Shown here: positions 5,878-43,087 of the stretch, piece by piece
Numbering within the stretch: position 1 is the first letter of the stretch
Layout of the letters: each line of letters opens with the position of its first letter
From: Sinomicrobium soli
Lineage (GTDB): Bacteria > Bacteroidota > Bacteroidia > Flavobacteriales > Flavobacteriaceae
DNA: 64,000 nt
Direction: 5' to 3'
Assembly (NCBI RefSeq): GCF_003285545.1
Contig: NZ_QLNV01000013.1
Coordinates: 1-64,000, forward strand
Notes under the pieces: generated by a model
What the model was told of the DNA's origin: nothing
Seen by the model: the letters and a program-made list of their open reading frames with translations, nothing else
Databases searched by the model: none
Program-made: the position numbers and the translations under genes

Positions 5878-6485
5878 AAATAACGCGACAACGCATTGCA
5901 TTCGCATTACCCGTTATTTTGCTGTTCCTGTTTACGGCATGTCATCACGACCCGGTGCCCAAACCCAGGGCCGTATTGCGGCTGGAATATCCGGAACCCT
6001 CCTACGAGGCCACCTCGCCCCCCCACTGTCCTTTCCGGTTTGAAAAAAACAGTATCGCACAGATCGGGGACAAAGGGCATTGCCGGCTCGATATCGGGTA
6101 TCCCGAAATGAAAGCAACCATCTTTCTCACGTATATGCCCGTGGAAAACAACCTGAAGGAACTGATGACAGACGCCGAAAAACTGACCTTCGACCACGTG
6201 GTCAAGGCAGATGAAATTGGCGTGGGCGGACAGTTCGAGAACGCGGAGAGCAGGGTATACGGCCGTTTATACGAGGTTGCCGGCAACGCCGCTTCACAGG
6301 TACAATTTTACGTTACCGACAGCACCTCACATTTTCTCACAGGCTCCCTGTACTTCTATTCCAGGCCCAATTACGACTCCATCCTTCCGGCAGCGAAATA
6401 CCTGGGCAGGGACATCCGGAGGCTTATGGAGAGTCTGCGATGGGAGAACAACGATATATCCCGCCCCGGGACCGTATCCGACTAA
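5874..6485 (+). CDS. gldD: Gliding motility lipoprotein GldD
   Basis: A 203-residue lipoprotein required for gliding in flavobacteria. The signal peptide is followed by the lipobox LFTAC, with Cys23 as the predicted lipidated residue. The mature part begins HHDPVPKPRAVLRLEYP and contains CPFRFEKNS, a pattern typical of GldD. It overlaps gldE by 4 nt. Its stop codon also overlaps by 4 nt (6482-6485) the stop of the convergent DUF5107 gene, so no terminator can fit between the two genes. Confidence 0.92.
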   Translation: MKITRQRIAFALPVILLFLFTACHHDPVPKPRAVLRLEYPEPSYEATSPPHCPFRFEKNSIAQIGDKGHCRLDIGYPEMKATIFLTYMPVENNLKELMTDAEKLTFDHVVKADEIGVGGQFENAESRVYGRLYEVAGNAASQVQFYVTDSTSHFLTGSLYFYSRPNYDSILPAAKYLGRDIRRLMESLRWENNDISRPGTVSD

Positions 6486-9421
6486 AAGAGATATTCATCT
6501 TCCCTGAAAGAAATCTGCCTTATTTCCTGTTCGAGATCGCTTTCACTCAGTGGTTTTCCGGGCAGTAACACCCTGTATTTCTCTTCCTGTTCCCTGTCCC
6601 CGAGCTTTCGGTACACATACATTCTCAGCGTATGCTGAAGATCCCTGTCGATCATATCCTCATAGGGTTTGCCTACCCCCAGGTGCTCCGGCCAGGTCTC
6701 GCTTTCCCCGGTTTTCCGCAATGCTTTTTCATATTGTCCTTTTTTATAGGCCTTATAAGCCAGCATCAGTTTTGTCTGCCTGAAGTATTTGTGTCCGTCG
6801 GTTGCTCCTTCAAAAGGTAATATCCTGATCCGTGACAACACTTCCTCTGCCCGCGGATATGCTCCCTGCTTCATAAGGAGCTTTATCAGGGCCAGCCCCG
6901 CCACATAATTGTCCGGGTTCCTGCGGTACAGTTTTTCAAGCATGCCGACCGCTTTTCCCGCTTCTCCCGACTTTTCCAGAAGATTCCCATACATAACCTG
7001 GTATCTCCACTGTTCCGGGGCCAGGTCTGTCGCCTTGTCCAGGTAACCGAGCTTTGCAGCCATACCACCCTGTTCGCCTACCCTGGCCTTCATCACATAA
7101 TACGGGGCATAATCCACTCCGGTAGCGTTCAGCAGAGAGTCCGCCTTGTGGTTATTGCCCCTGAAACTGTGTATTAATGCCAGGAGGTAGTTGAGCCGCC
7201 AGGAAGGCCTTTCCTGTTGTAACTGCTCCAGCATCATCGCACTTTCCTCCCGGAAGGGGAATACGTAATCCAGTGACATTTTTTCAGCCTGTTCAAAATA
7301 GCGGTCAGTGTCTTCTTCGCGGTCAGACAGAAAAGACAGCCAGTACGTGGCAAGTGCATTTCCGGGGGCGAGTTTTAACAGTGTCACACTTTCGTCCGTT
7401 CTTCCCAGTTCATAATACCAGATCGCCATCTCCAGGTAGGTTTCCAGCGGCATTTCATTCCTGATAAGCGAGGTAAAATCCGTTTTATCCTTTTCGGATC
7501 CCGTCCTGAGATAACGCTCAAACCGCATAAAGTGACTGAGAGGATTGAGTCTTTCAATCCTGCTTTCCATTTCGTTCATCGCCGCTTCATCGTGCTCCAG
7601 ACGGGCAATTACGTATAAGACCCGTAGCGCATCCATGTTCCGGTGACGGTTATCGAGGGCCCGCATTGCATATTCGCCTGCCTTGTCAAGGTCATTCTTT
7701 TTCAGGTAAAGGTGGCTCAGCCGGGTATAGGCAGCGTTCCTGTTACGGGAATCCAGGGCAGCCACTTCATAGCCATCCAGGGCATCGTAAAACCTTCCGG
7801 TTCCGGATGCCGACAGGGCATAGTAGTAATTGGCATCGCCGTCGTAAGTATCGATACTCAATGCTTTTTTCGCATACCGGAAAGCGGAATCGTACTCCAT
7901 CTTAAAGTACTTGATCTTCGCCATCTCTACCAGGGAGGGAACAAAAAAACCGTTCTCTTTTAAAGAAGCCCCGATGGTTTCCTCGGCCAGCCGGTATTTC
8001 CTGAAATTGGCATAGTCCCTTCCCAGAAGGTACAACCCGTAATAGCTGCCGGTATCAAATCCTTCGGGGGAAGACACCGGCCGGCTGAGTTTTTTCTGAT
8101 CGTTCCCGGCCAGGTCTATGCGGTCATCGCCGAGCTGTATAAACCGCAACCGGGCATTTTCCGGCAGTGTTACCCTTTTTTCAAGGGATCGCAGCGGACT
8201 GACCACAATCTCCTCCCTGTATATCTCATCACCATCTGCCCCCAGGAGGACCATATCTCCCTTGAATTCCTTTACCGGGGAAAGTGCAATATACAGGGCC
8301 GTACCCTGCAGCTTGATATTGAAAGCCCCCGCAGTATTCGCATGTGTAAACCCGCCGATATTACCGAAAGGATACCAATACTCTTTCCACGACTCATCGG
8401 TATAGGGTATCAGCCCGATCTGCTTAAAGGGCGTCTTACTGCTCTGGTCCACATTCTGGTTGTACAGCCTGCCGCTCTGTATTTCCACGTATTGCCCGCT
8501 GTGGTCGGTAAGCAGGTCTTCCCATATTTTTCCCTCTTCAGACTGGGCCCACAGAAAGATCTTTTTTCCCGGTTTGTCTCCCCTGTACGAATAGCGTATC
8601 ATGCCGTAATCACGCGCTTTCCACAAGGCACCGAAATACCGGCTGTAAACGCCCAGCACGTGATACGACTTCGATCCGTCAAAACCATTCTCCGAATACA
8701 GCGACAGATCCCTTCCCTGTGCATCCAGCGGCCAGGTATGCGCACTTCCGTCATGGCCAATGTAATGACTGCCCGGATAGAGGAATTGCAGGTCGTCTCC
8801 CGCGGGGATCCCTGCATTCATCCAGGTGTAATAGGGCTGTTCCACACCGGTCTGATTAAACCAGTAAGACTGCGTCGTAAAATACGCCCTGTCCTTTTCC
8901 AGGTTGATATCCAGTACCCACCGGGTCCTGGTGAGCAGGTCCAGTACACTTACCACACAGCTAACGCTGCCGTTTTCCCTGGTCATCACCTTGTAATCTA
9001 CCGGGGTGGCGCTGTTGGGAGTATGCCCTATAATACCGTAATTGGCCTCGATACCCCCGCTTACCCAGGGGCCCCTCATTGCTATATCCCTGAATTTTAC
9101 CACTTCATTGTTATACAAAAAGTATTCTTTATTGATCTTGTCATAGGCGGTCCATACCTTCCCACCTATTTCCGGCATGATCATCACCTTGATATAGTCG
9201 TTTTCCAGTTCCACAACCTTCCATTCCTTCTGCACCGCTTCCCGGGTAAAACCGTCAAAGCGGAAATACGGGTATAGTTTCGGTACTGCCGGTACCGGGT
9301 CAGGGTCGGAAAAGGGGTAAGTGGTGTATGGCTTCATGTATTCCCTGTACATAGCCCCCTGCTGGGCAAAGACCTCGCAGGAAATAAGGACCAGGATTAA
9401 AACTGTTGATAATTTTTTCAT
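6482..9421 (-). CDS. DUF5107 domain protein with TPR repeats, secreted
   Basis: A 979-residue protein with an N-terminal signal peptide (MKKLSTVLILVLISCEVFAQ). Residues about 40-330 match my memory of the DUF5107 family, with MIMPEIGGKVWTAYDKIN and GGIEANYGIIGHTP, a fold resembling galactose-mutarotase-type beta-sandwiches. The rest is helical with many tetratricopeptide-like units, for example NYYYALSASGTGRFYDALDG and AYTRLSHLYLKKNDLDKAGE. I chose the ATG at 9421, which overlaps the upstream gene by 4 nt; the ATG at 9445 would bury the signal peptide. It is the last gene of the sigma/FecR-controlled operon. Its biochemical role is unknown; carbohydrate binding or processing outside the cytoplasm is inferred from context. 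Confidence 0.82.
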   Translation of the reverse strand: MKKLSTVLILVLISCEVFAQQGAMYREYMKPYTTYPFSDPDPVPAVPKLYPYFRFDGFTREAVQKEWKVVELENDYIKVMIMPEIGGKVWTAYDKINKEYFLYNNEVVKFRDIAMRGPWVSGGIEANYGIIGHTPNSATPVDYKVMTRENGSVSCVVSVLDLLTRTRWVLDINLEKDRAYFTTQSYWFNQTGVEQPYYTWMNAGIPAGDDLQFLYPGSHYIGHDGSAHTWPLDAQGRDLSLYSENGFDGSKSYHVLGVYSRYFGALWKARDYGMIRYSYRGDKPGKKIFLWAQSEEGKIWEDLLTDHSGQYVEIQSGRLYNQNVDQSSKTPFKQIGLIPYTDESWKEYWYPFGNIGGFTHANTAGAFNIKLQGTALYIALSPVKEFKGDMVLLGADGDEIYREEIVVSPLRSLEKRVTLPENARLRFIQLGDDRIDLAGNDQKKLSRPVSSPEGFDTGSYYGLYLLGRDYANFRKYRLAEETIGASLKENGFFVPSLVEMAKIKYFKMEYDSAFRYAKKALSIDTYDGDANYYYALSASGTGRFYDALDGYEVAALDSRNRNAAYTRLSHLYLKKNDLDKAGEYAMRALDNRHRNMDALRVLYVIARLEHDEAAMNEMESRIERLNPLSHFMRFERYLRTGSEKDKTDFTSLIRNEMPLETYLEMAIWYYELGRTDESVTLLKLAPGNALATYWLSFLSDREEDTDRYFEQAEKMSLDYVFPFREESAMMLEQLQQERPSWRLNYLLALIHSFRGNNHKADSLLNATGVDYAPYYVMKARVGEQGGMAAKLGYLDKATDLAPEQWRYQVMYGNLLEKSGEAGKAVGMLEKLYRRNPDNYVAGLALIKLLMKQGAYPRAEEVLSRIRILPFEGATDGHKYFRQTKLMLAYKAYKKGQYEKALRKTGESETWPEHLGVGKPYEDMIDRDLQHTLRMYVYRKLGDREQEEKYRVLLPGKPLSESDLEQEIRQISFREDEYLF

Positions 9422-12420
9422 CTTTCCTCTATGATTAACATCCAACCCTTATTCCTTTCCACGGGGATCTCCTCGTCTGTACCGAAGGCCCTTCCGGGCT
9501 GGAAATCCCTGACTTCCGGAGCACGTATCCCAGCCTTTTTCCTGTCAATTCCCAGTGCTTTCCAGTCTATCTGCAACGTTACCGAAGTATCTTCTTCTGC
9601 CCAGCTCGCCACAGACACCAGGGCTTTGCCCTCTTTCCTGTATACTGTTGCCAGTACCTTTTCATTGCCGGTCTTTACCGGGTTCTTCTTCACCCAGTAC
9701 CCTATCATGTCTGAGCCCTGCATTCCGAAATCGTCCCAGACCTTCCAGATCGCATCGGGCCTTTTTTCCTGGTACGGCATCCTGTTGGTCATCCCGTATA
9801 CCATTCCCCTCCACGGGTTTCCCCCGTCCTGCAGCATCTCCCCCATAAGCCCGAACGGTATCCCGCTCACCTCGGTGAGATAAAAGGCGGGAGATGCTTT
9901 CTCATAATCGAAATACTCCCCGAACCAGAGCCTGTCTATATACGGAAAATGCTCCATATACAAGTGAGCGCTGTTGATGTAACCGTCGCGTTCATTGTAC
10001 TGATTGGCCGAATGCAGGTCTATAAGCCCGGGATGCCCGCCGCGGGTCAATACCCGTTTTATCCTTTTCATGGTGATGCGGTCGAAGGCCACATCATCGA
10101 GGTATATCCCGTCGATCCCTATGTTGCGCACCAGCCAGTTCATGCCTTCCACGTAATAATTGTGCCAGCGGTTCATGCCGCTGTTTATAATGGCGGCATC
10201 CTTGTATCGCGGCACATACCATGCCGCGATATAATGGTCCTGCAGATGTTCCTGCAGCCAGGCACTTCCTCCCCCGTCTCCTTCAGAAAAGACCTCGTTG
10301 TCCAGGCTTCTCAGGGGATAGAGTTCGTAAAGGCGGTTAGAGACCTCCCGAACCGTATTGTATATTTTGACTTTCAGGTTTTTACGGTGAGCTTCATCGA
10401 TATACGCCTTCATTTCCTTAGTCGCAATAAAGGGATAATTGATGTAGGGGTTGATCTCGTTCGCGTGATGAATATTGACCACATTCGATCCGCTCCTGAT
10501 CACAGAATCCACCGGTTTGTAGGCGTGAAAATAACGGTTGTTCCAGTGCTTATCGGTTTGCAGGGTGTGAAACGGGGTAATTAGCAGTGTAAAATTAAAA
10601 TACAGTTCCTCTCCTTTTTTCATCGATCGTTTTCCGCTGTAATTATCGACCACCACACGGCCTTCCGACGCACCGATGCGTATACCCCCCTTTCCGTCAT
10701 TGCCCCAGGAGGCGGGTAGCCTCAGCGGCTTCTGCAGGTAAAAATTGGTATTCAGCGGCCGCTGGTAATGCTCGTCCCTGAGGCTCAGCTGCATCCCTGC
10801 ATTTACATCCCCTATCCACCAGCCGTCCTGGTTCCTGTTCTTTACATCCCATTTCCAGTCTACCACATCCGGCAGCTCCCCACCTTCGAACCCCAGCCCG
10901 AGTAAGTATTCCGCACTGTCTTCAGACAAGGGCACCTCCAGGGAAACATCCTCAAGCTCCACATCGCGCTGCGCGGTAAGTTTTATTTCGTAATTCATAA
11001 AACCGTCAAATTCCAATGAGCCCGACACGTTCATCTGCAGGTCATGCCCGCTGCTCACAGCGCTCCAGCTGACCTTCCCGGATTCTTTTTCCAGGAAACT
11101 CACCCCGGAACCGTCCGTTTCCACAACCGGTCCGCCTGCCTTTTTAACGGAGAACCTGAACGGGGAGGCCAGGATATCTTTTGCTTTATCCGATACCGAG
11201 GTCATTTCTTCGGTAAAGAAGCTTTCGACCGCGGAAGGCAGGCCGTTTTCACCCAGGACTACCTTTCGTCCCAGTATCGACAGCGTGTTGCCCTTTACCT
11301 CTACCGGTGTATACGGGGCAATCACCGAGTTCTCCTGTGCCAGCGTGGAGTTGATCCAGGACAGCCTGGTCTGTTTCCACGGTTCGTCCATACCATTGTT
11401 CCCGGCGACCTCCTCCGTAACGGTAAGTTCGATCTTCGTCTTTACTTCCGCACTGTTCGACGGTTTAAGCACGATCTCCCCGGTATAGGTCCCGGCAGGG
11501 GTCTCTTCGGGCAGGTCTATCCCGAACCACAGTGGTTGTACCAGCCCTTTGGCGACATTGACGGTCTTTGAAAAAGGTGTTCCGGTATAGTCCGTACCTT
11601 CCTTGTTAAAGCAGGAAAAAAGGGTTTCGGGCAATATATTCCCGTCGCGGTCCCTGAAACCGGAATACGAGATGGATATATCGGTAAGGTCCTGGTCCTT
11701 TGCCCATACTCCCAGCTGAAAGGTGTAGTGCTCTCCCCGCTTTACCCGGTCGCTGAATACCGGCTTCAAGGTTCCGGTAACCCACTTCGCGGGCAGGTAT
11801 TTTTTCATTTTTACCGGGAATTCCCGGTACTCCGGAAAAACCACATAGGGCTGCCCTTTAACTTTTTTCTTAAATTCCTCCGTTTCCTCCCGGGTAGCAA
11901 TAACCTCCATAGGTGTATTGCTGTTAAAATCGTCTACCGGCTCCAAGCGGATCACTTCCGCCACAGACCGTTTCGATATCTTATACTTTTTACGGTTTTC
12001 CGTATTTTTGGCCGGTTGGTCCAGGTACCTGGCATCGGGATAATTCCCTCTCCCCTCCAGTTTATAAGGCAGGTAATACACATAATATATTCCTTTGTTC
12101 CCGTTGGTCGCAAAGGTCAGGACCCCTCTTTCCGGGGTGATATCGACCGGTTGTACTTCCGGTACGGCCTCCTGCCCGGCACTGTCGATTACAATAATCG
12201 CCTGGTTTCTGGTTACATTGCGATTTCGCCAGTTTATGGAAACGGTTACTCCGTCCACCTTTTTCTTTACCTGGACCACTGCCCGCTGGGTTCCCAGTGA
12301 ATCTGCATCCCATAATTCCTCCTGTGGAGGATACAGGTGTTGCTGGGCCGGAAGCGTATGCCCGGTAATCAAAAGGAAACTTATCAGTATAATACGGCCT
12401 ATGCCATTTGAATTTCTCAT
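9418..12420 (-). CDS. DUF6067-type putative glycoside hydrolase
   Basis: A 1000-residue exported protein (signal peptide ending near LPAQQ). The N-terminal half is beta-rich, with sandwich-like segments such as GIDLPEETPAGTYTGEIVL. The C-terminal half looks like a TIM barrel: MKAYIDEAHRKNLKVKIY, then GIDGIYLDDVAFDR and DRLWFGEYFDYE. The Asp pair and the Glu are plausible catalytic residues by analogy with other barrel glycosidases; this is inference. I recall similar proteins annotated as DUF6067 or glycoside hydrolase domain proteins. It overlaps the genes on both sides by 4 nt, so the three tail genes of this operon are translationally coupled. The substrate is unknown. Confidence 0.72.
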   Translation of the reverse strand: MRNSNGIGRIILISFLLITGHTLPAQQHLYPPQEELWDADSLGTQRAVVQVKKKVDGVTVSINWRNRNVTRNQAIIVIDSAGQEAVPEVQPVDITPERGVLTFATNGNKGIYYVYYLPYKLEGRGNYPDARYLDQPAKNTENRKKYKISKRSVAEVIRLEPVDDFNSNTPMEVIATREETEEFKKKVKGQPYVVFPEYREFPVKMKKYLPAKWVTGTLKPVFSDRVKRGEHYTFQLGVWAKDQDLTDISISYSGFRDRDGNILPETLFSCFNKEGTDYTGTPFSKTVNVAKGLVQPLWFGIDLPEETPAGTYTGEIVLKPSNSAEVKTKIELTVTEEVAGNNGMDEPWKQTRLSWINSTLAQENSVIAPYTPVEVKGNTLSILGRKVVLGENGLPSAVESFFTEEMTSVSDKAKDILASPFRFSVKKAGGPVVETDGSGVSFLEKESGKVSWSAVSSGHDLQMNVSGSLEFDGFMNYEIKLTAQRDVELEDVSLEVPLSEDSAEYLLGLGFEGGELPDVVDWKWDVKNRNQDGWWIGDVNAGMQLSLRDEHYQRPLNTNFYLQKPLRLPASWGNDGKGGIRIGASEGRVVVDNYSGKRSMKKGEELYFNFTLLITPFHTLQTDKHWNNRYFHAYKPVDSVIRSGSNVVNIHHANEINPYINYPFIATKEMKAYIDEAHRKNLKVKIYNTVREVSNRLYELYPLRSLDNEVFSEGDGGGSAWLQEHLQDHYIAAWYVPRYKDAAIINSGMNRWHNYYVEGMNWLVRNIGIDGIYLDDVAFDRITMKRIKRVLTRGGHPGLIDLHSANQYNERDGYINSAHLYMEHFPYIDRLWFGEYFDYEKASPAFYLTEVSGIPFGLMGEMLQDGGNPWRGMVYGMTNRMPYQEKRPDAIWKVWDDFGMQGSDMIGYWVKKNPVKTGNEKVLATVYRKEGKALVSVASWAEEDTSVTLQIDWKALGIDRKKAGIRAPEVRDFQPGRAFGTDEEIPVERNKGWMLIIEER

Positions 12421-13931
12421 TGTTGTTCTGTTTTAAAATAAGCAGACCAGGTAGACCGGGGCACATATTCTGCCCGGTACGGAATAAAATACGAGTTCAG
12501 GGCCCATAATACCTCTCCCTTCTGATCGCTGATCACGACCCCGCCTGTCTTGGAACTGGTAAACAGTATGTTATCATTCGGCAACAGGGTGGAGCTCCCC
12601 ATCCTGGACGTGTAGTACCTCCCCGGAAGTACGGTATTGATCTTTATGTTGGCCCGCATATTCACGGTATCCAGGTCAAAGGAAACACTCCTGGAGAACT
12701 TGTTGACCTTCGTGGTGTCGTTAGGTGAAAAATCACCGTTGTCAAACAGCATCAGGTCTCCAAGCCTGTTGATATGGGCATCGTGCTGAAAGTAGAAATA
12801 CGAGGTGGAATCCATTTCAAAATCTCCTCCCTTACCCAGTTTCCAGACAAGTTTTCCGGTTTTCGGGTTCACCTTCCACACCTGGTTTTCAATGGGAGTG
12901 GACAACAGGTAATTTCCATCCCGGTCGAGCCGGATCGAATTAAAGTGAAACCGGTCTCCCGCATATTCCTCCAGCCGGGTGTCCTTTTCGATGTCCCATA
13001 CCTCCCAGGCAGACCATTTTTTCACCACTTCCCCCAGGGTATCCATGATCATGACCCCGTCGCCCCACAGGGTATCTCTGGCCTCTCCCGAACCTTTAAG
13101 GTCATACATCCTGTAATCCCTGTAGATGCTCATGATCTGGCTTTGGTCATTCATCCGGATATCGTGATGGAATACCAGGTCCTTTTCTGCCACGTTTATA
13201 CGTCTCAGCTCATGTCCTTCGAGGTTGAGTTCCACGATTTCGGTTCCGCCGACAAACCCTGTTTTACCTGTTCTCATGTAATAGCTGGCTACCCCGGCAT
13301 TTTCTCCTTTCTTTTTTTTTCTGAACTCATCCTTCCGGGCCGGGGCCAATAAGGCCAGAATGGTTTTCCGGGGGGTTATCGTCGCTATCCGTACCCCGAG
13401 GTCATCATCCTGCCAATACCAGCGGACCACCCCGTTGCCGTCTACTATGGCAATATAACCGGGGTATCCCCTGTAACACAGCATGACCATGCCGTCGTCC
13501 AGTGCAGTCACGTCGCGGGGAGCCCCTTCTTTCATCCAGTCGTGAACCATCCACGGGGGAGCGTCCATAGTGTGAAAACTCCGGATATCCGTCGACTTGT
13601 CAAACAATCCCTTTACGGTAATCCTGTACTCGTATGTTGTTCCGGGTTCCAGGAGAAGAAGGTGAATATCGTGTTCTTCCCTATCCTCCGAAACCGGGGT
13701 CGTATACTTTTCGGCCCCGCCTTCTTTCCAGTACTCGACATACACCGAAGCCGTCTTGTTCAGCACGATATTTATGTCTTCCTTAAGTGCCGAGTTACCG
13801 GGAGAACTCAACCTTATCTCCCTGATCTCTACAGTACCGGAAAGCAGGTAAAAAACAGCCAGTACGATAACCAGAAGTACCCCGGACAGAATAATAACAC
13901 TTCCTCTTTTCAACGATAGTCCCATACGCAA
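12417..13931 (-). CDS. Arylsulfotransferase (ASST)-like membrane-anchored protein
   Basis: A 504-residue protein with one N-terminal membrane segment (about residues 11-31) and a periplasmic or surface domain. Residues about 35-125 look like a fibronectin-type sandwich (GTTYEYRITVKG). The rest resembles the beta-propeller of PF05935/PF14269 arylsulfotransferases. Three His-containing motifs fit that family in order: VFHHDIR, RFHFNSIRLD and YFQHDAHINRLGDLMLFDNG. In E. coli ASST the corresponding histidines take part in 3'-phosphoadenosine-independent sulfate transfer between aryl groups. The gene starts 3 nt after the susD stop and overlaps the next gene by 4 nt. An ATG at 13925 is an alternative start. 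Acting on a sulfated or phenolic glycan component is inference. Confidence 0.78.
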   Translation of the reverse strand: MRMGLSLKRGSVIILSGVLLVIVLAVFYLLSGTVEIREIRLSSPGNSALKEDINIVLNKTASVYVEYWKEGGAEKYTTPVSEDREEHDIHLLLLEPGTTYEYRITVKGLFDKSTDIRSFHTMDAPPWMVHDWMKEGAPRDVTALDDGMVMLCYRGYPGYIAIVDGNGVVRWYWQDDDLGVRIATITPRKTILALLAPARKDEFRKKKKGENAGVASYYMRTGKTGFVGGTEIVELNLEGHELRRINVAEKDLVFHHDIRMNDQSQIMSIYRDYRMYDLKGSGEARDTLWGDGVMIMDTLGEVVKKWSAWEVWDIEKDTRLEEYAGDRFHFNSIRLDRDGNYLLSTPIENQVWKVNPKTGKLVWKLGKGGDFEMDSTSYFYFQHDAHINRLGDLMLFDNGDFSPNDTTKVNKFSRSVSFDLDTVNMRANIKINTVLPGRYYTSRMGSSTLLPNDNILFTSSKTGGVVISDQKGEVLWALNSYFIPYRAEYVPRSTWSAYFKTEQQ

Positions 13932-13934
13932 ATT

Positions 13935-15476
13935 TTAAGGCATCCTGTTTGCATTTTCCCCTGCCATTTCCGGGTGAAGCATGGCTTCATCCAGCGGATA
14001 CGGGAAATACCTCATGTTTTCCGTAACCACGGGGGCCATTCCCCGCGAAACCAGGTAATCGTTGCACACCTCCACGTATTTCCCCAGCCGTATAAGATCT
14101 GCCCTCCTGTGGTATTCAAAAACCAGTTCGAAACCTCTTTCATCGACCAGTACATCTATCATTTCCTCTTTGCTTGCAGGAATGGGGAACTCTGCACTGC
14201 TTCCGTATTCCGGCGCATCGGCCCTGGCCCTGATCTCATTTACATAAGGCAGGGCAGCATCAGGACCGTTCAGGGCATTCTCGATTTCCGCCTTACAGAG
14301 GATCACATCGGCCAGCCTGAACACCTGTATGGTCCTTCCGTCCAGGTATGAATTGGAGATCATCTCATAAGAATATTTTTTAGTGGCCACATTTTGCAGC
14401 AGCTTTGTAGTATCGTTGGGAGGCACTGTTTCCCCCACCTCAGGCATTTTGTAATAGAAACCGCTTTCTGTATTGCCATCCCTGGGAGAGGCCCCTTCGT
14501 AGTCAAAGTAAAAGAACTGCTTTCTCGGGTCTTCATCCGCATATTTTCTCCAGAAAGGGAGCGATACGGCATAATACTGCCACCTGTTCTGGACCACTTT
14601 GTGATCTGACGGCCCGAAGTGATTGGTAATCTCTCCCCCGTTCTGTGCAGCTTCGTGCAATATCCCGAAAATGAGCCCGTCATCTATTTTATTGGACTCA
14701 GACCATTCGTCCTTAAAATCCGGGTTCAGGGTGTAGATGCCTTCATCTCTCAGGGCCAGCACCTGATCGATATACTCCTTGGCCCGGGCATAATCATGTG
14801 AACGCATATACACCTTTCCGAGGAGGGTCAGCGCAGCGCCTTTTGTAGCTCTCCCCAATCCGTATTCCGTATCCCAGGTTTTGGGAAGGTGTTCTATGGC
14901 AAATTCGCAATCTTCGATGATCACTTTTTCCACTTCTTCCACGGGCGACAGCGGGGAATCTGTGCTTTCTCCCGGGTTTTCATAGGTGGTGATCAGCGGA
15001 ACCGGGCCCCAGGAATCGGTCAGGTCTTTATAGGCCAGTGCCCTCAGGAAGCGCGCCTGCCCGGTAATATAATCTTTTCGGGCCTGATCCATTTCCACCT
15101 CCTCTATCCTGCCCAGCAGGATATTGGCATTGCTGATCACTTCATACATGTTCTGCCAGTTCAGCCGGAAATACCGGTTGTTATCATCATAGGTGAAATT
15201 GCTCATCTTCGTAGGATCTCCCGCTGCCGTGGAAAACCCCATATCGGTCGCGTAATCCGTGATCATGACCAAATACCCGGCATAGTAAAGATAGGCATCT
15301 CCCGGATACGGGTTCAGCTTGGAATAGATCCCGGTCAGGGCTGCTTCTATATCACTCTCCGTGCTATACGCATTTTTGGTGGTCAGGTCGCTGTACAGTT
15401 CGGGTTCCAGGTTGGTACACGCCGCAAAGACCAGGCTGATGACCGGTATGACAATATATTTTTTATAATCCATCAT
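13935..15476 (-). CDS. SusD/RagB-family glycan-binding lipoprotein
   Basis: A 513-residue surface lipoprotein that caps its SusC partner and delivers ligand. The signal peptide ends in the lipobox VFAACTN. SusD hallmarks include YSDLTTKNAYSTESDIEAAL near the N-terminus, FLRALAYKDLTDSWGPVPLI in the TPR region, and the C-terminal VDERGFELVFEYHRRADLIR. I chose the ATG at 15476, 10 nt after the susC stop; a longer reading from 15500 would overlap susC. It belongs to the ECF/FecR-controlled operon. Confidence 0.93.
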   Translation of the reverse strand: MMDYKKYIVIPVISLVFAACTNLEPELYSDLTTKNAYSTESDIEAALTGIYSKLNPYPGDAYLYYAGYLVMITDYATDMGFSTAAGDPTKMSNFTYDDNNRYFRLNWQNMYEVISNANILLGRIEEVEMDQARKDYITGQARFLRALAYKDLTDSWGPVPLITTYENPGESTDSPLSPVEEVEKVIIEDCEFAIEHLPKTWDTEYGLGRATKGAALTLLGKVYMRSHDYARAKEYIDQVLALRDEGIYTLNPDFKDEWSESNKIDDGLIFGILHEAAQNGGEITNHFGPSDHKVVQNRWQYYAVSLPFWRKYADEDPRKQFFYFDYEGASPRDGNTESGFYYKMPEVGETVPPNDTTKLLQNVATKKYSYEMISNSYLDGRTIQVFRLADVILCKAEIENALNGPDAALPYVNEIRARADAPEYGSSAEFPIPASKEEMIDVLVDERGFELVFEYHRRADLIRLGKYVEVCNDYLVSRGMAPVVTENMRYFPYPLDEAMLHPEMAGENANRMP

Positions 15477-15486
15477 TTGCTTCTCT

Positions 15487-18400
15487 TTAAAATTTAACAC
15501 TTAAACCAAAAGTGAACGATCTCATGCTGGGGTAGGAATTAAAGTCCAGTCCCGCTCCGGCATTCGCCGCCTGCTGATTTCCCCCTGCGCTGAGCCCGTT
15601 ATTATTCTCATATCCCTTGGTATCCACCTCCGGGTCCCATCCCGAATAGGAGGTTATGGTAAAAAGGTTTTCTCCCATCAGATACACCCGCAGCGATTCC
15701 ACTTTTTCCGTTTTCAGGGGTACGGTATATCCCAGGGTCAGGTTCCTCAGGCGCAGAAACGAGGCATCCTCTATAAAATGATCGTTGACATACCCTCCGT
15801 ACTGTGCGTAATAGAAACCATTTCTCGGAAGGTTGGTATCGGTATTATCCGGGGTCCACCGGTTCAATGCGTCCCTGGTCCTGTTCCATTCCAGGTTCAT
15901 CCTGGTCATATTCAGCAGGTCGTTCCCTATATTTCCGTACAGGAAAAACGACATGTCAAAATCCTTATAGGTAAGACTGTTCGTAAACCCCAGTGTCATT
16001 TTCGGAGTCGCATTCCCTATGATGGTCCGGTCTGCAGAAGTGATTTCCCCGTCATTATTAACATCAACAAACAACGGATCACCAGGCACCGCACCGGGTT
16101 GCGGCCCGTAGGTTTCACCCTCCTGGAGCACCCCCGCATATTTATACCCGAACAGCGACCCCAGGGGCTCTCCTTCCCTGATTATGGCATAGGCTTCTTC
16201 AGAAACCGTTCCCATAGGCTTGGACGAGGTAAGCAATATATCGCTTTCCCCTCCCAGCGACTTCACTTTATTACTGTTAAAGGCAAGGTTGAGATGAGTG
16301 GTCCAGGTAAAATCTTCTCCTACAACATTTTTGGATTCCATCCCGAATTCTATTCCCTTATTCTCAATGGCCCCGATATTTTTCAGGCCGGAAACATAGC
16401 CCGTATACATCGGAAGATTTACTCGTATCAGCAGGTTTTCGGTTTTCTTGTGATAGGCATCGACATTGAAGCTCAGCCTGTTGTCCAGGAAGCTGAAATC
16501 CACTCCCACATTGTACTGGTCTGTAGTCTCCCATTTCAGCCTGCTGTTTTCCGGGCTGGTATTGTTCAGGTATGCCCCCGAAGAATTCTGTTCCCCGTCA
16601 AAAGTGTATTTGGCATTGGACATAAGACCGTAAGAGGCGTAATCCCCGATCCTTTCGTTACCGGTCTTACCGTAACCCGCCCTGAATTTCAGGTCGGAAA
16701 ACAGGTTTTGGTCCTGCATGAACTGTTCATTGATAACCCGCCATGCAAACGACCCGGAGGGGAAAACCCCCCAGCGATTGTCCTCCCCGAACCGGGACGA
16801 ACCGTCGGCCCGGACCGTAAAGGTCAGTAAATACCGGTCGTCAAAGGTATAATTGACCCTTCCGAAAAAGGAGGCCAGTATGTTTTCGCTCTTATACGAA
16901 GATACCCCGGTGATCGTCGAGGCCGCCCCCAGATTGTTATAACCGTAGAGGTCGGTTGAAAAACCATATACATTTATTCCCTTCCGCTCATTGATAAACT
17001 TTTCATAAGAGTATCCGCCCATAAACTGGAAGGCGTGTTTTTCATTGAATTCCCTGTTATAGGTAAGGAACATATCGAACAGGTTATGGGTAAGCGAATA
17101 ATCGGAGGTCGAGGCCACCCCGTTGTCTGCGCTTCCCTGGTAAGATTCCCGCAACAGGTAGGTGCCCAGCTGATCGTGCCTTATCTCCGTCCCGGCATCC
17201 ACTCTGGCGGTAAGTCCTTCGGCCAGGTTAAATTCCATGAACATGGTTCCGTTGAAGGCATCTTTCTGAAGATCGTTCTGCCTGGACATCAGGTTGGCCA
17301 GCGGATTGTCTCCCCTTCCCCCGGGAGGCCGGGCAAAACTACCGTCTGCATTGTAAACGGGAACCGTAGGGTCGTACGTAAGAACCGCATACAGCACATT
17401 GGAATTCAATATATTACCACTATATAACTGGTAATCCGATTTTTCGCGCTGGGCCATCATGCTAACCCCGGTTTTGAGAAAATCATTGATCTTGTGATCT
17501 ATGTTTACCCTCCCGGAAACCCGGGAAAAGTTGGTATTCTTCAAAACCCCGTCCTGGTCAAAAAAACCCAGGCTGGTCAGTATCTTTGTCTTTTCATTTC
17601 CCCCGGTAACCTGTATACTGTAGTTTTGTATCACACTGTTCCGGGTAGTGGCTTCTACCCAATCGGTATTGACATCAGATTCCAGTTGCGAAGGAGTATA
17701 CACTCCGTATTCCTGGTTTTCCTGCCCGGGTATCTCTTTATACAGTGCGTTGGCCAGGCTCATATAATCCTTGCCGTTCAGCATGTCGAACGGATTGGTA
17801 ATATGCTGAATACTGGTATATGCGTTTACGGTGATATTGCTGATCCCTTCCTTTCCCCTCTTGGTAGTGATCATGACTACTCCGTTGGCTCCTCGCGAAC
17901 CGTAAATGGCCGTGGCAGATGCGTCTTTCAGTATTTCCATGGAGGCTATGTCGTCCGGGTTTATATTTACCCCGTTATCTGTAGGGAACCCATCTACCAC
18001 ATACAGGGGTTCATTGGTACTGCTCACCGAATTTGCGCCCCTTATCCTGATCGACATACTCCCTCCCGGCGCTTTCGAATTCTGGGTCACCACTACCCCG
18101 GAAGCCCTTCCCTGAATAGCCTGGGCCACATTGCTGACCGAGCCTCCCGAGGTCAGGTCTTCAGAGCTCAGGGAAGAAACAGCCCCGGTAAGATCGCTCT
18201 TTTTCTGTGTTCCGTACCCTACGACAACAACTTCTTCCAGGGCAGAAACATCTTCTCTTAATGCTACCTGTACCTCTGTCCGCCCGTCTACCGGAACTTC
18301 CTGGTTCACAAAACCGAGGTAAGAAACCTCCAGTACCGCATCCTTCCCGGAAACCGTCAAGGTATAATTCCCGTCAAAGTCGGTCTGTGTACCGTGTGCA

Positions 18401-18897
18401 GTCCCTTTCTCCAGTACATTTGCCCCGGGCAACGGCGTTCCCTGCGAATCGGTCACTGTTCCCGATATTTCCATCCCCTGTTCCCCTGCCGATATATTGG
18501 TTTCGGATGTACCCGGTTCGGGTATTTTTCCGGGTTTTTTGCGTACAATGACCTGTCTGCCGTCCAGTTCATAAGTAAGGGTAGTCTTCCCGAATATCTT
18601 GTGCAGGATATCCTCCAGGGTGGCATCCTTTACGTCGAGGGATACCTTTTCCCTTTCATCCAGCGTACCATCCTTATAAAAAAAGACGTATTCACTGTTC
18701 TTTTGTATTTCCTCGAATACCTGTTTTACCGTAACGTTCCTCATGTTAATGTCCATCCTGGTCTGTGCAGAAGAATGACTGGCATATACCGAAGACAATC
18801 CGATACCGATAAAGAGAAGAAATATTTTCATCGCGGTCCATAAGAACCTCACAGGGGGAAAGCCCCCCGGGAAGCCAGGGTTAGTATTTTTATTCAT
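15487..18897 (-). CDS. SusC/RagA-family TonB-dependent receptor with STN domain
   Basis: A 1136-residue outer-membrane transporter. After the signal region (about 20-44) comes an STN domain, about 46-118 (MDINMRNVTVKQVFEEIQKN), which marks receptors that signal through a FecR/ECF pair. Next are a carboxypeptidase-regulatory-like domain (about 145-225, GTVTDSQGTPLPGANV), the plug (EEVVVVGYGTQKKSDLTGAV; GANSVSSTNEPLYVVDGFP) and a beta-barrel ending FTFGLSVKF. The adjacent fecR and sigma genes fit this signalling role. The long N-terminus (MNKNTNPGFPGG...) may be trimmed if translation starts at an internal ATG (18831). Substrate is not deducible. Confidence 0.94.
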   Translation of the reverse strand: MNKNTNPGFPGGFPPVRFLWTAMKIFLLFIGIGLSSVYASHSSAQTRMDINMRNVTVKQVFEEIQKNSEYVFFYKDGTLDEREKVSLDVKDATLEDILHKIFGKTTLTYELDGRQVIVRKKPGKIPEPGTSETNISAGEQGMEISGTVTDSQGTPLPGANVLEKGTAHGTQTDFDGNYTLTVSGKDAVLEVSYLGFVNQEVPVDGRTEVQVALREDVSALEEVVVVGYGTQKKSDLTGAVSSLSSEDLTSGGSVSNVAQAIQGRASGVVVTQNSKAPGGSMSIRIRGANSVSSTNEPLYVVDGFPTDNGVNINPDDIASMEILKDASATAIYGSRGANGVVMITTKRGKEGISNITVNAYTSIQHITNPFDMLNGKDYMSLANALYKEIPGQENQEYGVYTPSQLESDVNTDWVEATTRNSVIQNYSIQVTGGNEKTKILTSLGFFDQDGVLKNTNFSRVSGRVNIDHKINDFLKTGVSMMAQREKSDYQLYSGNILNSNVLYAVLTYDPTVPVYNADGSFARPPGGRGDNPLANLMSRQNDLQKDAFNGTMFMEFNLAEGLTARVDAGTEIRHDQLGTYLLRESYQGSADNGVASTSDYSLTHNLFDMFLTYNREFNEKHAFQFMGGYSYEKFINERKGINVYGFSTDLYGYNNLGAASTITGVSSYKSENILASFFGRVNYTFDDRYLLTFTVRADGSSRFGEDNRWGVFPSGSFAWRVINEQFMQDQNLFSDLKFRAGYGKTGNERIGDYASYGLMSNAKYTFDGEQNSSGAYLNNTSPENSRLKWETTDQYNVGVDFSFLDNRLSFNVDAYHKKTENLLIRVNLPMYTGYVSGLKNIGAIENKGIEFGMESKNVVGEDFTWTTHLNLAFNSNKVKSLGGESDILLTSSKPMGTVSEEAYAIIREGEPLGSLFGYKYAGVLQEGETYGPQPGAVPGDPLFVDVNNDGEITSADRTIIGNATPKMTLGFTNSLTYKDFDMSFFLYGNIGNDLLNMTRMNLEWNRTRDALNRWTPDNTDTNLPRNGFYYAQYGGYVNDHFIEDASFLRLRNLTLGYTVPLKTEKVESLRVYLMGENLFTITSYSGWDPEVDTKGYENNNGLSAGGNQQAANAGAGLDFNSYPSMRSFTFGLSVKF

Positions 18898-18924
18898 ACT
18901 TTTGTTGTGTTTGTTGATTAATTG

Positions 18925-18984
18925 TTACCGGCAAGGCCCGGTAAGGTTAATTTTCCACCGGGAGATGTTGGAGCATCTTCCGGT
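18925..18984. promoter_or_regulatory. Two hairpins between fecR and susC
   Basis: In the 136-nt gap, TTACCGG (18925-18931) and CCGGTAA (18938-18944) form a perfect 7-bp stem. Next to it ACCGG-AGATG (18957-18967) pairs with CATCT-CCGGT (18974-18984) around TTGGAG. Neither has a T-run on the minus strand, so they look more like processing or attenuation structures setting the fecR:susC ratio than like a full terminator. This role is inference. Confidence 0.5.
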
Positions 18985-19033
18985 TTCTTGTTTTTAGAGC
19001 TGTGGTGTCATGTCATGATATTCAACAAGTTTT

Positions 19034-20095
19034 TTAGTTAATAATCCATTTATTATTTCCTGTTCCGGATCTGAAATATTCGAAATCCGTAGTTTTTCTG
19101 ATCGTCTCTATAACATTCTCTACGCTGTCCTTTAAGTCCAGGTACCCTGAAAATGTCTGCCTGGCCAATACCAGGTCGGTGATCTCTATCTCTATATTGT
19201 AATACCTGGCCAGCTTTTTTACGATCTCGTCCATCCTGCTGTTCTCGAGGATCAGCACGCCTTCCTTCCAGGAAAAGAAATCATCCACATCCACCTCCTT
19301 CGAGGTCATTCTCCCGGTGTTCTTCTCGTATTCGGTCATGGTCCCCGGTTTTATCCTGATGGTTTTCTCCCTTTGCCACATACTTTCCCCTTTATAGGCC
19401 ACTTCAACACTTCCGCTTTTCAGCACGGTTCTTACCGCATCGTCCCCGGCGTAATTGCTCACGTTAAACACGGTTCCCAACACCCGGATCCGGTGGTTAT
19501 CGGCCAGCACCATAAAAGGTTTCTCCTTGTTGTGGGTCACTTCAAAAATACCTTCACCTTCCAGGTATACTTCTCTTTTATCCCCTTCAAAAACAGCCGG
19601 GTATACCAGTTTCGAACCTGAGTTGAGCCAAACCGTGGTGCCGTCGGACAATGCTATCCTCGATCTTTTACCATAGGGCACGATAAGGGTGTTGAATGCT
19701 ACCTGTTTGTTATCGTCTTTTTTCTGCAATACGGTTTTCGATTTTCCTATGGTTACCTTCTCACCGTTCGGGGAATAGGAAACCGTAGAGTCGGCCGCGC
19801 CCAGGCTTATTTCCTGTTCTTCTCCCATAACAAGCCTGACTTCCCCGCCACTATCTTTCCCGCCTTGGTCCAGCGATCTGGCATAATGATAAACGCCCGG
19901 CGGCTGTGTGGCCCGGAAATACATCTTTCCAGCTACCAGTACCGACACCACGCACCCCAGGACCAGGGCTCCCCTCCTGATCCTGTTGCGCCTTCTGTAT
20001 CCGTGTACGGACCGCATAATCCGTTTTTTTAACAGGTCCTGCTCTTCCTCCCGGATCACGGCTGTTCCTTCTGTATTGTTATTACTTTTTTCCAC
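19034..20095 (-). CDS. FecR-family anti-sigma factor
   Basis: A 353-residue inner-membrane regulator. The N-terminal cytoplasmic part (about 1-40) should hold the ECF sigma factor. One membrane segment follows (about 43-59, GALVLGCVVSVLVAGKMYF), then the periplasmic FecR domain (IVPYGKRSRIALSDGTTVWL; EGEGIFEVTHNKEKPFMVLA) and a C-terminal STN-interacting domain (DUF4974-like, MDEIVKKLARYYNIEIEI). It would receive a signal from the STN domain of the downstream SusC and release the sigma factor. It lies 285 nt downstream of the sigma gene and 136 nt upstream of susC. Confidence 0.93.
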   Translation of the reverse strand: MEKSNNNTEGTAVIREEEQDLLKKRIMRSVHGYRRRNRIRRGALVLGCVVSVLVAGKMYFRATQPPGVYHYARSLDQGGKDSGGEVRLVMGEEQEISLGAADSTVSYSPNGEKVTIGKSKTVLQKKDDNKQVAFNTLIVPYGKRSRIALSDGTTVWLNSGSKLVYPAVFEGDKREVYLEGEGIFEVTHNKEKPFMVLADNHRIRVLGTVFNVSNYAGDDAVRTVLKSGSVEVAYKGESMWQREKTIRIKPGTMTEYEKNTGRMTSKEVDVDDFFSWKEGVLILENSRMDEIVKKLARYYNIEIEITDLVLARQTFSGYLDLKDSVENVIETIRKTTDFEYFRSGTGNNKWIIN

Positions 20096-20334
20096 GATAG
20101 TTTCTTCAACGATTATTATCCCGGCAAAAGCCTGAAATGCATTCCGACATTGCCCGATACAACATACAACGCATTTTCAGCATAAGTACCGGACTATTCC
20201 GCGTCCTGCATGGTGCGTACCGGGGGGCTCTATTATATAAAAGGCCGTTTTTGCCCCGGCATAGACAGTTTTTTAAAACTTTTTTCAGAAAATATCAGAT
20301 GTTTTCTTAAAACGGAAATAAAATATTTGAGAAA

Positions 20335-20367
20335 CAGGTGATTGACAAAAGCTGTTTCTATCACCTG
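20335..20367 (-). terminator. Hairpin after the sigma gene, possible weak terminator
   Basis: CAGGTGAT (20335-20342) and ATCACCTG (20360-20367) form a perfect 8-bp stem just past the sigma stop at 20381. On the minus strand it is followed by a U-rich but interrupted tract. It may partly end transcription between the sigma gene and fecR; the remaining gap to 20096 shows no gene. Confidence 0.45.
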
Positions 20368-20380
20368 CCCGTACGGGAAC

Positions 20381-20983
20381 CTATATGCAGAAAAACAACC
20401 CGGAAAGTATAAGCAGGCAGGGCAGCAAATGCGCACGAAGCACTTTTACCGCCCGGTAGATCAGTGTCCTGGAAGTTTCTATCGAAACATCCATGATCTC
20501 CGCTATTTCTTCATAGGGTTTCTCTTCCTTGTATTTGAGAAACAGGGCCTGTCGCTGCCTGTCCGTCAGCAGACCGAAAGACGATTCCAGGCGGAGCGCC
20601 CTTTCGGTATGCCATTCGTTAAAAATATAATCTTCTTCCGCAGAACATACGGACTGCTGGGGGACAAAAATATACTGCTCCGTATCTTCCACGGAAACCG
20701 TCCGCGTATTTTCCGCTGTCCTGAACCGGCGGCTGATCTTTCGCTGCAGTGACCGGACGAGATAAGCCTGTACGTTGGAACAGGCAGACAGCTTTTTCCT
20801 GTATTTGTAGAGGTCGAGAAAAAGATCATGTATGGCATCGAGCACTTTCTCCCTATCGCCCGAAACCCTCATTCCGTAAGAAAACAGTAAGCCCGCATAC
20901 CGGTCGTATAGGGCACCAAGAGCTTGTGTACTCCCCCTGCGAAGTTCTTCCCATAAATCGTGTATTTCCCTGTTACTTTTCAA
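20381..20983 (-). CDS. ECF-type RNA polymerase sigma factor
   Basis: A 200-residue group IV sigma factor. Region 2 covers ALYDRYAGLLFSYGMRVSG to AIHDLFLDLY. Region 4 covers LLTDRQRQALFLKYKEEKPY to VSIETSRTLIYRAVKVLRA, a helix-turn-helix for -35 binding. The last 15 residues (LLPCLLILSGLFFCI) are strongly hydrophobic, which is unusual for a soluble sigma factor and could attach it to the membrane near FecR. With fecR and the STN-type SusC it forms a trans-envelope signalling chain controlling this locus, as in characterised Bacteroides systems. Confidence 0.92.
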   Translation of the reverse strand: MKSNREIHDLWEELRRGSTQALGALYDRYAGLLFSYGMRVSGDREKVLDAIHDLFLDLYKYRKKLSACSNVQAYLVRSLQRKISRRFRTAENTRTVSVEDTEQYIFVPQQSVCSAEEDYIFNEWHTERALRLESSFGLLTDRQRQALFLKYKEEKPYEEIAEIMDVSIETSRTLIYRAVKVLRAHLLPCLLILSGLFFCI

Positions 20984-28975: not shown

Positions 28976-28979
28976 AGCT

Positions 28980-30254: not shown

Positions 30255-30281
30255 TTAGTTTATTCGTTCTTAGTTGTTAGT
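30252..30281 (-). repeat. Leader repeat before the isomerase gene
   Basis: Same words as at 27254-27290, 8 bases shorter in the middle, again ending at the start codon. Confidence 0.75.
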
Positions 30282-30308
30282 CCGGGAGTTTGACAGCAGA
30301 ACGGAAGC

Positions 30309-30379
30309 CCCGGAGATTTAACTGCGTTGAGCCCTTCGGGGTTCTCCTTTCCCGATGTTCGGGACAGGCTGTCGGAATG
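30309..30379 (-). repeat. 71-bp inverted repeat, copy B
   Basis: Reverse complement of 27295-27365 with one mismatch. It lies in the 176-nt gap between the aldolase/dehydrogenase and the isomerase genes. Confidence 0.93.
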
Positions 30380-30430
30380 ACAACTTCCGGCTTCTGACCA
30401 TTTCATCATTCGCAAGTATCCCGGGATCCC

Positions 30431-32542: not shown

Positions 32543-32644
32543 CGACTTTCTTTTTTAGGCCCCATAGCATTGCAAGGCTATAACGGCCAGGGTTTACAAT
32601 TCAAGCATGGACGAAAATATATGTTCTGTATCAAACAACTATCC

Positions 32645-32665
32645 TGTAGTGTACTGCTCAATACA
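32645..32665. promoter_or_regulatory. Candidate operator of the rhamnose regulator
   Basis: TGTAGTG (32645-32651) and CAATACA (32659-32665) form an inverted repeat with 6 of 7 matching positions and a 7-nt spacer. It lies in the 242-bp gap between the divergent aldolase and regulator genes, where a GntR-type dimer would be expected to bind. The rest of the gap is AT-rich and shows no gene. Confidence 0.45.
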
Positions 32666-32784
32666 AAACACAAGCTTCCCGCAATATAGTGTGTAAGAAA
32701 CACATTTTTTATTATTTTTACCATTATAATAAAACACCTCTCCTTTTTAACAAAATTGCTATTAATTAACATAAAGGGTGCACT

Positions 32785-33840: not shown

Positions 33841-33947
33841 TCCTCTCTGTGAATCTCCGGGCTTCACAGTGATGATTTAAACCTGCAACCTGCCACTAAC
33901 AACGAAAACAATATATGGTATAACCCCTGAAATGATATAGATCAGTT

Positions 33948-34856: not shown

Positions 34857-34858
34857 TT

Positions 34859-37057: not shown

Positions 37058-37111
37058 TACTCCAGGTTTTATCTTTTAAGAACTTGTTTAAATTTCTACG
37101 GGCACCACTGG

Positions 37112-38194: not shown

Positions 38195-38225
38195 GTTCTG
38201 TATTTTTATTCCGGAAACAACGGTT

Positions 38226-41924: not shown

Positions 41925-42034
41925 GGTCCTGAGCTTTCATTTCGAAAGCCAATATCCCTTTTTTAAAGTGTATGCGCATCCTGTACAATCCTGTTTTCCG
42001 CTGCCGGTTACGGCATCAAAGCGCAATAAATGAC

Positions 42035-42080
42035 AAAAAAGCTGTCCCCGGTATTTTCAGGCACCGTGAAACAGCTTTTT
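42035..42080 (-). terminator. Terminator after the esterase gene
   Basis: AAAAAGCTGT (42036-42045) and ACAGCTTTTT (42071-42080) form a 10-bp stem whose A-run becomes a U-tract on the minus strand. It lies 17 nt past the esterase stop and separates the GH106-GH105-esterase unit from DUF4450. Confidence 0.75.
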
Positions 42081-42097
42081 ATGTTCAAACCTTATGG

Positions 42098-43018: not shown

Positions 43019-43087
43019 CTGTTTTAAAAATTGTTTTCACTTTCCAAGAAACTGTCTAAAGGTACATAAAAAACAAAGACGTCCTGT

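Follow-up and report, generated by a model that had tools for sequence, protein, structure and literature searches.

The aryl sulfotransferase (ASST) of Escherichia coli CFT073 (3ELQ) consists of a beta-sandwich and a beta-propeller, and the ASST active site comprises His252, His356, Asn358, Arg374, Thr501, and His436, the last being the residue that is sulfurylated, as given in the part of the source available (PMC13426309). According to the same partial source, the natural acceptors and physiological roles of most aryl sulfotransferases independent of 3'-phosphoadenosine 5'-phosphosulfate (PAPS) are unknown, with the role of Cpz4 (9KF4), the PAPS-independent sulfotransferase of caprazamycin, being established (PMC13426309). 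Here, we describe a locus with an ASST-like protein in Sinomicrobium soli (contig NZ_QLNV01000013.1, positions 1 to 64,000; this whole 64,000-nucleotide stretch is called the window below). It consists of seven genes, all on the minus strand, in the order ECF (extracytoplasmic function) sigma–FecR–STN-SusC–SusD–ASST-like–GH123L–DUF5107-TPR (tetratricopeptide repeat), with GH123L referring to a protein with a GH123-type N-terminal domain. While SusCD loci are a known kind, this conserved ASST/GH123L/DUF5107-TPR variant is uncharacterised. It is tentatively proposed, at somewhat less than even confidence, that the locus is a substrate-induced SusCD-type polysaccharide utilization locus (PUL) for the uptake and processing of a sulfated N-acetylgalactosamine (GalNAc)-type glycoconjugate, its ASST-like protein being a modified sulfuryl-transfer enzyme.

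The window protein shares with the E. coli enzyme the sandwich and propeller as well as the equivalents of His252, His356, Asn358, and the sulfurylated His436, whereas it lacks Arg374, carries His386, Arg443, and an N-terminal membrane helix, and is encoded in a SusCD operon. Among solved structures, Cpz4 is the top match in both fold and sequence, but it has Arg at the 374 position and serves antibiotic sulfation instead of an uptake locus. Likewise, the GH123 beta-N-acetylgalactosaminidases (5L7R and 5FQE) have their N-terminal domain in common with GH123L, in which GH123_cat is absent, and the GH66 and DUF6259 barrels show a weak likeness to the GH123L barrel, although the window protein is under both cut-offs and the N-terminal domains differ. 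The solved protein 5CD6 has the same DUF5107 + TPR architecture as the last protein of the locus, which in the window sits in a SusCD operon. Finally, the di-heme thiosulfate dehydrogenase TsdA (4WQ7 and 5LO9) has its catalytic Cys, both Arg, and distal Met aligned in cytochromes of the window's relatives, where the gene lies directly behind ASST in the SusCD operon, whereas the window has none.

A preliminary description of this DNA had read seven genes in this order, which Pfam and the gene calls bear out, together with two 4-nt overlaps, between the ASST stop and GH123L start (12417-12420) and between the GH123L stop and the start of the DUF5107 gene (9418-9421), both of which are ATGA when read from the sequence. 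It had also regarded the coupled trio behind a full sigma/FecR/SusCD set as uncharacterised and had proposed scoring its co-occurrence with SusCD in other Bacteroidota; the unit proved to be conserved, and no paper describing it came up when its domain names were searched in full text, with limited coverage of subscription papers. Related loci were collected by a profile search with a 12-sequence GH123L alignment, and out of at least 537 hits the 80 most similar to the window were analysed, so fractions over these 80 are not population rates; since ORF calling in the relatives was simple, starts may be misplaced and genes missed, and neighbour labels derive from BLAST against a few references. 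In 41 of the 80 loci, ASST and GH123L belonged to one co-directional run, and these ASST-GH123L runs held SusC and SusD in all cases (41/41), DUF5107-TPR in 39, and a cytochrome gene in 24. The uninterrupted, window-like order SusC-SusD-ASST-GH123L-DUF5107TPR was present in 15/80 loci and the five-gene unit with extra genes in 24/80 (23 with cytochrome and DUF5107-TPR, and L127 with an inserted GH123 gene), and the order was found in loci of five Bacteroidota families as well as in a separately drawn genome sample. Among the 39 runs without ASST, 27 had neither SusCD nor DUF5107, ten had SusCD only, one had SusCD and DUF5107, and one had DUF5107 only; L187 was counted here because its ASST-SusCD set is divergent, beside GH123L. 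Genomes of the other 38 loci were searched (L187 was excluded as its ASST is on the other strand), and ASST was matched elsewhere in 16 of them, in one case as no more than a short remnant. SusC-SusD-ASST also occurs without GH123L and DUF5107-TPR, and GH123L often without ASST; the three-gene tail is not the smallest unit.

The five genes from SusC to DUF5107-TPR were well conserved between the window and Echinicola shivajiensis (identities of 68% for SusC, 79% for SusD, 67% for ASST, 65% for GH123L, and 57% for DUF5107-TPR). Across eight loci of Echinicola, Arenibacter, Salegentibacter, Olivibacter, and Sphingobacterium, the ranges were 63-69%, 70-79%, 53-67%, 56-65%, and 45-57%, respectively, compared with merely 21-39% for FecR and, where matched, the sigma factor. 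From these identities, the five-gene part looks like a travelling unit with regulators that are exchanged or fast-evolving. In the separate sample of 395 Bacteroidota genomes, for which at most 4-5 ASST and DUF5107 candidates per genome were scored, PF19543 was detected in 23 genomes (12 at full length, >1000 bits), ASST in at least 107, and DUF5107 in 45. ASST lay within 3 kb of a full-length GH123L in 8/12 cases (G000, G172, G364, G387, G403, G427, G458, and G466), six of them from one genus (g127), and DUF5107 likewise in 8/12 (G000, G172, G278, G364, G387, G427, G458, and G466); by simple arithmetic, two given genes of a 4-5 Mb genome would lie this close by chance with a probability of the order of 1/1000 per genome. 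Among the matches listed, the nearest ASST in G239 was about 14 kb from the full-length GH123L, and none was found for the full-length GH123L of G245, G278, and G281. G000 (L056) also has a second, more distant DUF5107 protein (C33:75647-76555).

The nearest GH123L among the matches listed was that of Sinomicrobium weinanense (75%). In its locus L108, a C-terminal ASST remnant (9901-9993; window residues 471-501, 74% identical) directly precedes GH123L, whose start is still ATGA, with the remnant frame running past it without a stop there. Because of this remnant, the ASST-GH123L-DUF5107 order is probably older than the split between S. weinanense and the window strain, and ASST can be lost. 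The left flank of the window locus (RNase E-MutY-SSB-CNNM-gldD) was kept in G094, the sole other same-genus genome of the 395-genome sample, in which a different SusCD set lies within a few genes of it and matches to the ASST, PF19543, and DUF5107 families were sought and none found; S. weinanense has the same left flank with other genes behind. The site is thus variable.

The predicted structure of the window ASST-like protein (pLDDT 84.3) has an N-terminal membrane helix (residues 9-31), a beta-sandwich, and a beta-propeller, and Foldseek retrieved Cpz4 (9kf4; E 6.5e-16, TM 0.53, 23% identity) at the top of the list and E. coli ASST (3elq_A) at E 2.0e-15 (TM 0.62, structural alignment with about 15% identity), the model thereby showing the ASST fold. 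By sequence, too, Cpz4 ranked first among the solved structures (9.3e-17). In the profile alignment to 3elq, His255, His329, Asn331, and His383 corresponded to His252, His356, Asn358, and His436, respectively. Residues were tabulated for 63 clade ASSTs (the window protein, 42 from the 80 loci, and 20 out of 21 full ASST genes in further genomes), with proteins below 400 aa (80 loci) or 350 aa (further genomes and neighbour counts) excluded from residue and neighbour counts. His255, His256, His329, Asn331, His383, His386, and Arg443 were kept in 63/63, and the window residues aligned with the Thr501 region form a conserved RMGS motif of unsure register. Outside the clade, the SusCD-linked ASSTs of L101-L103 have Arg at the 374 position and Ser at 443, and that of L104 has Arg at 374 together with His386 and Arg443, which are hence not unique to the clade. 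In the ASST tree, in which the deeper forks are uncertain and connect long branches, the window protein grouped with those of Arenibacter and Echinicola (97/97) within a branch of 16 members (100/100) with N-termini resembling membrane anchors, and the other branch had 27 members, 24 with a cytochrome and many with a lipobox-like motif. A copper-propeller assignment, raised by thiocyanate dehydrogenases from Foldseek rank 22, was set aside since ASST accounts for the histidines.

Among the 62 clade ASST genes with called neighbours, the gene directly upstream was SusD in 59, and the one directly downstream was a TsdA-like cytochrome in 36, a GH123L-labelled gene in 16 (15 GH123L and the GH123 of L127), DUF5107-TPR in one, a chromate-type transporter in one, and something else or nothing on the same strand in eight. 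In addition, 20 further ASST loci without GH123L had SusC in 20/20 and SusD in 19/20. The L090 cytochrome, the one tested, is di-heme and matched solved thiosulfate dehydrogenases at about 1e-30. TsdA-aligned Cys, two Arg, and distal Met were present in 36/36 cytochromes and the heme-1 His in 35/36, being missing in L181. In the part of the source available, mutation of Cys96 of A. vinosum TsdA, to which the kept Cys is aligned, abolishes activity, and the two aligned Arg would correspond to its Arg109 and Arg119 if precursor numbering is used there (PMC6879331). Within the 80 loci, 23 of the 24 cytochrome cases belong to Flavobacterium; no such gene is present in the window locus, and none was matched in its genome by a search run without a positive control. 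FG-GAP/ASPIC-UnbV-like proteins are encoded next to ASST, or one gene away, in L104, L199, L211, L212, L219, L223, and L244; in L105 (7340-18948), a 1140-aa protein of this type by Pfam lies between the SusC gene and DUF5107-TPR, a place taken by an ORF of similar size in L106 and L107.

GH123L comprises a signal-peptide-like N-terminus, a GH123-type N-terminal domain, a beta-rich region, and a barrel. PF19543 and the GH123 N-terminal domain (PF22680) matched 26/26 aligned members (the alignment omitted L150, L173, L179, and L182, L179 having in-frame stops within the match range), and the GH123 catalytic domain PF13320 matched 0/26; membership of GH123 was therefore rejected. That catalytic domain carries a DE motif, according to the accessible part of PMC11087588. 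In a profile search, solved GH123 enzymes matched the N-terminal domain only (positions 207-330, best 3.6e-7), and the barrel-only profile yielded nothing related among the solved structures, its best match (1.3) being unrelated. Among the seven barrels scanned, DUF6259 matched 7/7 and GH66 6/7. Invariant acids in the barrel include Asp770, Asp775, Asp776, Glu835, Glu850, and Glu861, of which Asp775 lies in a DG-x3-D pattern like that of GH31/GH66 nucleophiles. A blood-group galactosaminidase (8x1b and 9awt), top in Foldseek at TM 0.21-0.32 and rmsd of about 16 with a model whose barrel is poor, was not used as a relative.

With regard to sulfur, the window genome contained 47 sulfatase-domain matches (some genes gave two, and four matches were at most 28 bits), and sulfated substrates are probably part of the organism's diet. 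Searches of this genome found no match to Sulfotransfer_3 (PF13469; present in 2/14 control genomes, with PF00685 not searched genome-wide) and none to adenosine 5'-phosphosulfate (APS) kinase (present in 11/14), which speaks against sulfation biosynthesis. The organism thus seems unable to make PAPS by the known kinase, and its ASST would therefore need external sulfuryl donors. Accompanying genes in the 80 loci, assigned by BLAST to references typed by Pfam, included Sulfotransfer_3 (three), APS kinase (three), and sulfatase (one), none in Flavobacterium; M1 (22, all Flavobacterium) and M60 peptidases (three, two Flavobacterium); GH109-like (18, 17 Flavobacterium), GH35-like (seven, six), GH110-like (five, five), and GH123 (one, none) proteins; and DUF3472 (12, eight) and a chromate-type transporter (two, none). 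GH109, GH110, and M60 enzymes act on GalNAc- or Gal-capped O-glycans and glycoproteins, and such company supports, but does not show, an O-glycan or glycoprotein ligand for the window. The GalNAc activity of the GH109-like protein is uncertain because its nearest NCBIfam models are other Gfo/Idh/MocA dehydrogenases, far under their cut-offs. In some of L101-L103, L184, L187, and L268, an inositol-phosphatase/CysQ-like gene or APS kinase was also observed with ASST, transporter, sulfotransferase, and SusCD. Overall, the sulfated substrate of the preliminary description gains partial support from the kept catalytic histidines, the few relatives with sulfate genes, and the sulfatase-domain matches, and its alternative of a phenol-bearing polymer is weakened, Arg374 being lost in 63/63 and no finding pointing to a phenolic ligand. 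Its statement that classical glycoside hydrolases are absent is right for family names only, not in view of the GH123-type N-terminal domain and the weakly GH66/DUF6259-like barrel.

On the proposed PUL function, a ligand at SusC/SusD would signal via the STN domain in SusC to FecR and on to the ECF sigma factor, switching on the operon, and SusC/SusD would import a glycoconjugate fragment into the periplasm. There, three exported proteins would act: the membrane-anchored propeller may move SO3 from the ligand via its conserved histidine to an acceptor, GH123L may cleave a glycosidic bond, most likely in a retaining, alpha-type manner, and the TPR protein may bind or epimerise the freed sugars with its DUF5107 part. 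The likeliest ligand would be a sulfated GalNAc-bearing glycan, possibly protein-borne.

Several observations weigh against this proposal. At the Arg374 position, the 63 clade ASSTs have Tyr (46), Pro (16, including Pro346 of the window), or Phe (one) and never Arg, and their chemistry could accordingly be changed or abolished. Since 23 of the 41 ASST loci are from Flavobacterium, these loci are not independent, and whole-genome searches found no ASST match in 22 of the 38 genomes without a linked ASST, GH123L therefore not requiring ASST; S. weinanense L108 retained GH123L (75%) and DUF5107-TPR (72%) and lost ASST. The isolated window barrel scored 3.8e-5 (22.9 bits) against GH66 and 3.2e-4 (20.3 bits) against DUF6259, under the cut-offs of 23.7 and 28.7, and the GH123L model is weak in the barrel (pTM 0.50, blocks mostly at pLDDT 30-50), so that a GH66/DUF6259-like barrel can only be suggested. 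None of the 47 sulfatase matches lies on the window's contig, and sulfate genes are confined to 4/80 loci (L127, L181, L184, and L187). Moreover, the M1, GH109-like, and GH110-like genes are nearly all from Flavobacterium, outside the window branch, in which GH109/GH110/M60 genes are missing beside the unit and the sole GH109-like match (L125) has 29% identity.

The loss of Arg374 in 63/63 clade members would also fit a protein that is no longer a sulfotransferase and serves as a ligand-binding or structural propeller passing the import from SusD to periplasmic enzymes. The ASST gene lies directly behind SusD in 59/62 cases, ligand-binding propellers such as BtuG appear at lower ranks of the Foldseek list, and S. 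weinanense dispenses with the ASST gene while keeping GH123L and DUF5107-TPR. However, mere binding would not need His255, His256, His329, Asn331, and His383, kept in 63/63, and the TsdA-like genes directly downstream in 36/62 and the few loci with APS kinase or sulfotransferase speak for sulfur chemistry; a catalytically dead propeller is accordingly thought unlikely, though to be taken seriously. An ordinary PUL for an unsulfated glycan with the ASST-like protein as a passenger is considered distinctly unlikely: 11/80 GH123L loci have SusCD without ASST, one of them with DUF5107-TPR, and no ASST match was found in 22/38 genomes, but the position of ASST is constant in 41/80 loci of five families (the L184 order being rearranged), and SusC is present in 20/20 further ASST loci without GH123L.

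The cytochromes raise the possibility of sulfur-oxyanion redox instead, in which the ASST-like protein would yield thiosulfate or thiosulfonate for oxidation by a TsdA-type cytochrome. The di-heme gene directly behind 36/62 clade ASSTs, the L090 matches at about 1e-30, and the TsdA-aligned Cys, two Arg, and Met (36/36) and heme-1 His (35/36) agree with it, but the window locus has no cytochrome gene, the genome search without a positive control gave no match, and such cytochromes might serve as electron acceptors only; moreover, all but one of the 24 cytochrome cases within the 80 loci come from Flavobacterium. This redox pathway is judged very unlikely. Little credence is likewise given to a combined reading in which the SusCD-linked clade would be a new catalytic subfamily (Arg374 lost, His386/Arg443 fixed) that takes SO3 off an organosulfur or sulfated ligand after import and passes it to a sulfur nucleophile, the resulting thiosulfate or thiosulfonate being oxidised by a partner TsdA-type cytochrome in the sister branch, with the window branch having no cytochrome. 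Caprazamycin biosynthesis reportedly includes a two-step sulfation pathway, and a similar relay would have a cytosolic PAPS sulfotransferase make an aryl sulfate from which the extracytoplasmic ASST sulfates a sugar. It would agree with SusC-SusD-ASST-ChrT-Sulfotransfer_3 in L101-L103, L268, and L184 (L101 and L184 also with APS kinase), with the same genes rearranged in L187, with a sulfotransferase (L127) or APS kinase (L181) beside the unit, and with Cpz4 heading the Foldseek list, for which sugar-hydroxyl sulfation is reported in the available part of PMC13426309. Nevertheless, neither PF13469 nor APS kinase was matched in the window genome (PF00685 was not searched genome-wide), which lowered the probability of caprazamycin-type sulfation in this strain, now regarded as highly improbable; such a relay is possible in the other Bacteroidota carrying L101-L103, L184, L187, and L268.

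Features of the locus are listed in Table 1. SusC and SusD are adjacent and accompanied by their own sensor and regulator genes, as in a SusCD-type PUL, and GH123L is glycosidase-like but matches no established GH family. PF19543, named GH123_N in the Pfam copy used, is presumably the earlier DUF6067 and matches the family named in the preliminary description. The true SusD start is probably an internal ATG, the gap between SusD and ASST is 3 nt, and for the DUF5107 gene the ATG at 9421 appears a better start than the listed TTG at 9445. The DUF5107-TPR protein has a signal-peptide-like N-terminus and a solved relative in 5cd6 (4.3e-24), and the 3' end of its gene overlaps the convergent gldD on the opposite strand by 4 nt.

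Table 1. Genes of the ASST-containing SusCD locus, with window coordinates
Feature	Position	Strand	Supporting matches
ECF sigma factor	20381..20983	-	Pfam Sigma70_r2 4.8e-7, Sigma70_r4_2 1.2e-11; NCBIfam sigma70-ECF
FecR-type anti-sigma regulator	19034..20095	-	Pfam FecR 6.3e-14 + FecR_C
SusC-type TonB-dependent transporter, N-terminal STN	15487..18897	-	STN 3.9e-10, Plug, beta-barrel; TIGR04056 929.6 bits
SusD-type protein, lipobox-like FAAC	13935..15500	-	Pfam SusD_RagB 9.6e-24
ASST-like protein	12417..13931	-	Pfam Arylsulfotrans (PF05935) 3e-30, 105.9 bits vs cut-off 24.2
GH123L	9418..12420	-	PF19543 1427.6 bits over 36-998 of 1000 aa
DUF5107 + TPR protein	6482..9421	-	Pfam DUF5107 1.2e-111 + TPRs

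Elsewhere in the window, a probable rhamnose-glycan locus (27542-46997) encodes an FGGY sugar kinase, an isomerase-like protein, an aldolase/short-chain dehydrogenase fusion, GH106, GH88, GH43-like, and DUF4450 proteins, and a probable alpha-mannan locus (52277-61738) has SusC and SusD genes with two GH92 genes directly behind. The ORFs at 25832-27256 (474 aa) and 34859-37057 (732 aa) had no Pfam match at 0.001.

Two features of this system are surprising, namely the changed active site of the ASST and the TsdA-like cytochromes accompanying it in the sister branch, and together they predict a sulfur chemistry undescribed for the ASST fold in the literature covered. If the combined reading of a new catalytic subfamily with a cytochrome partner were correct, a glycan-uptake operon would be coupled to periplasmic sulfur-oxyanion redox. 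Full-text searches, with limited coverage of subscription papers, returned no functional paper on PF19543 or DUF5107, for both of which the operon supplies genetic context. Furthermore, a conserved operon with an ASST behind its own importer and sensor offers a direct route to the substrate, via the SusC inducer.

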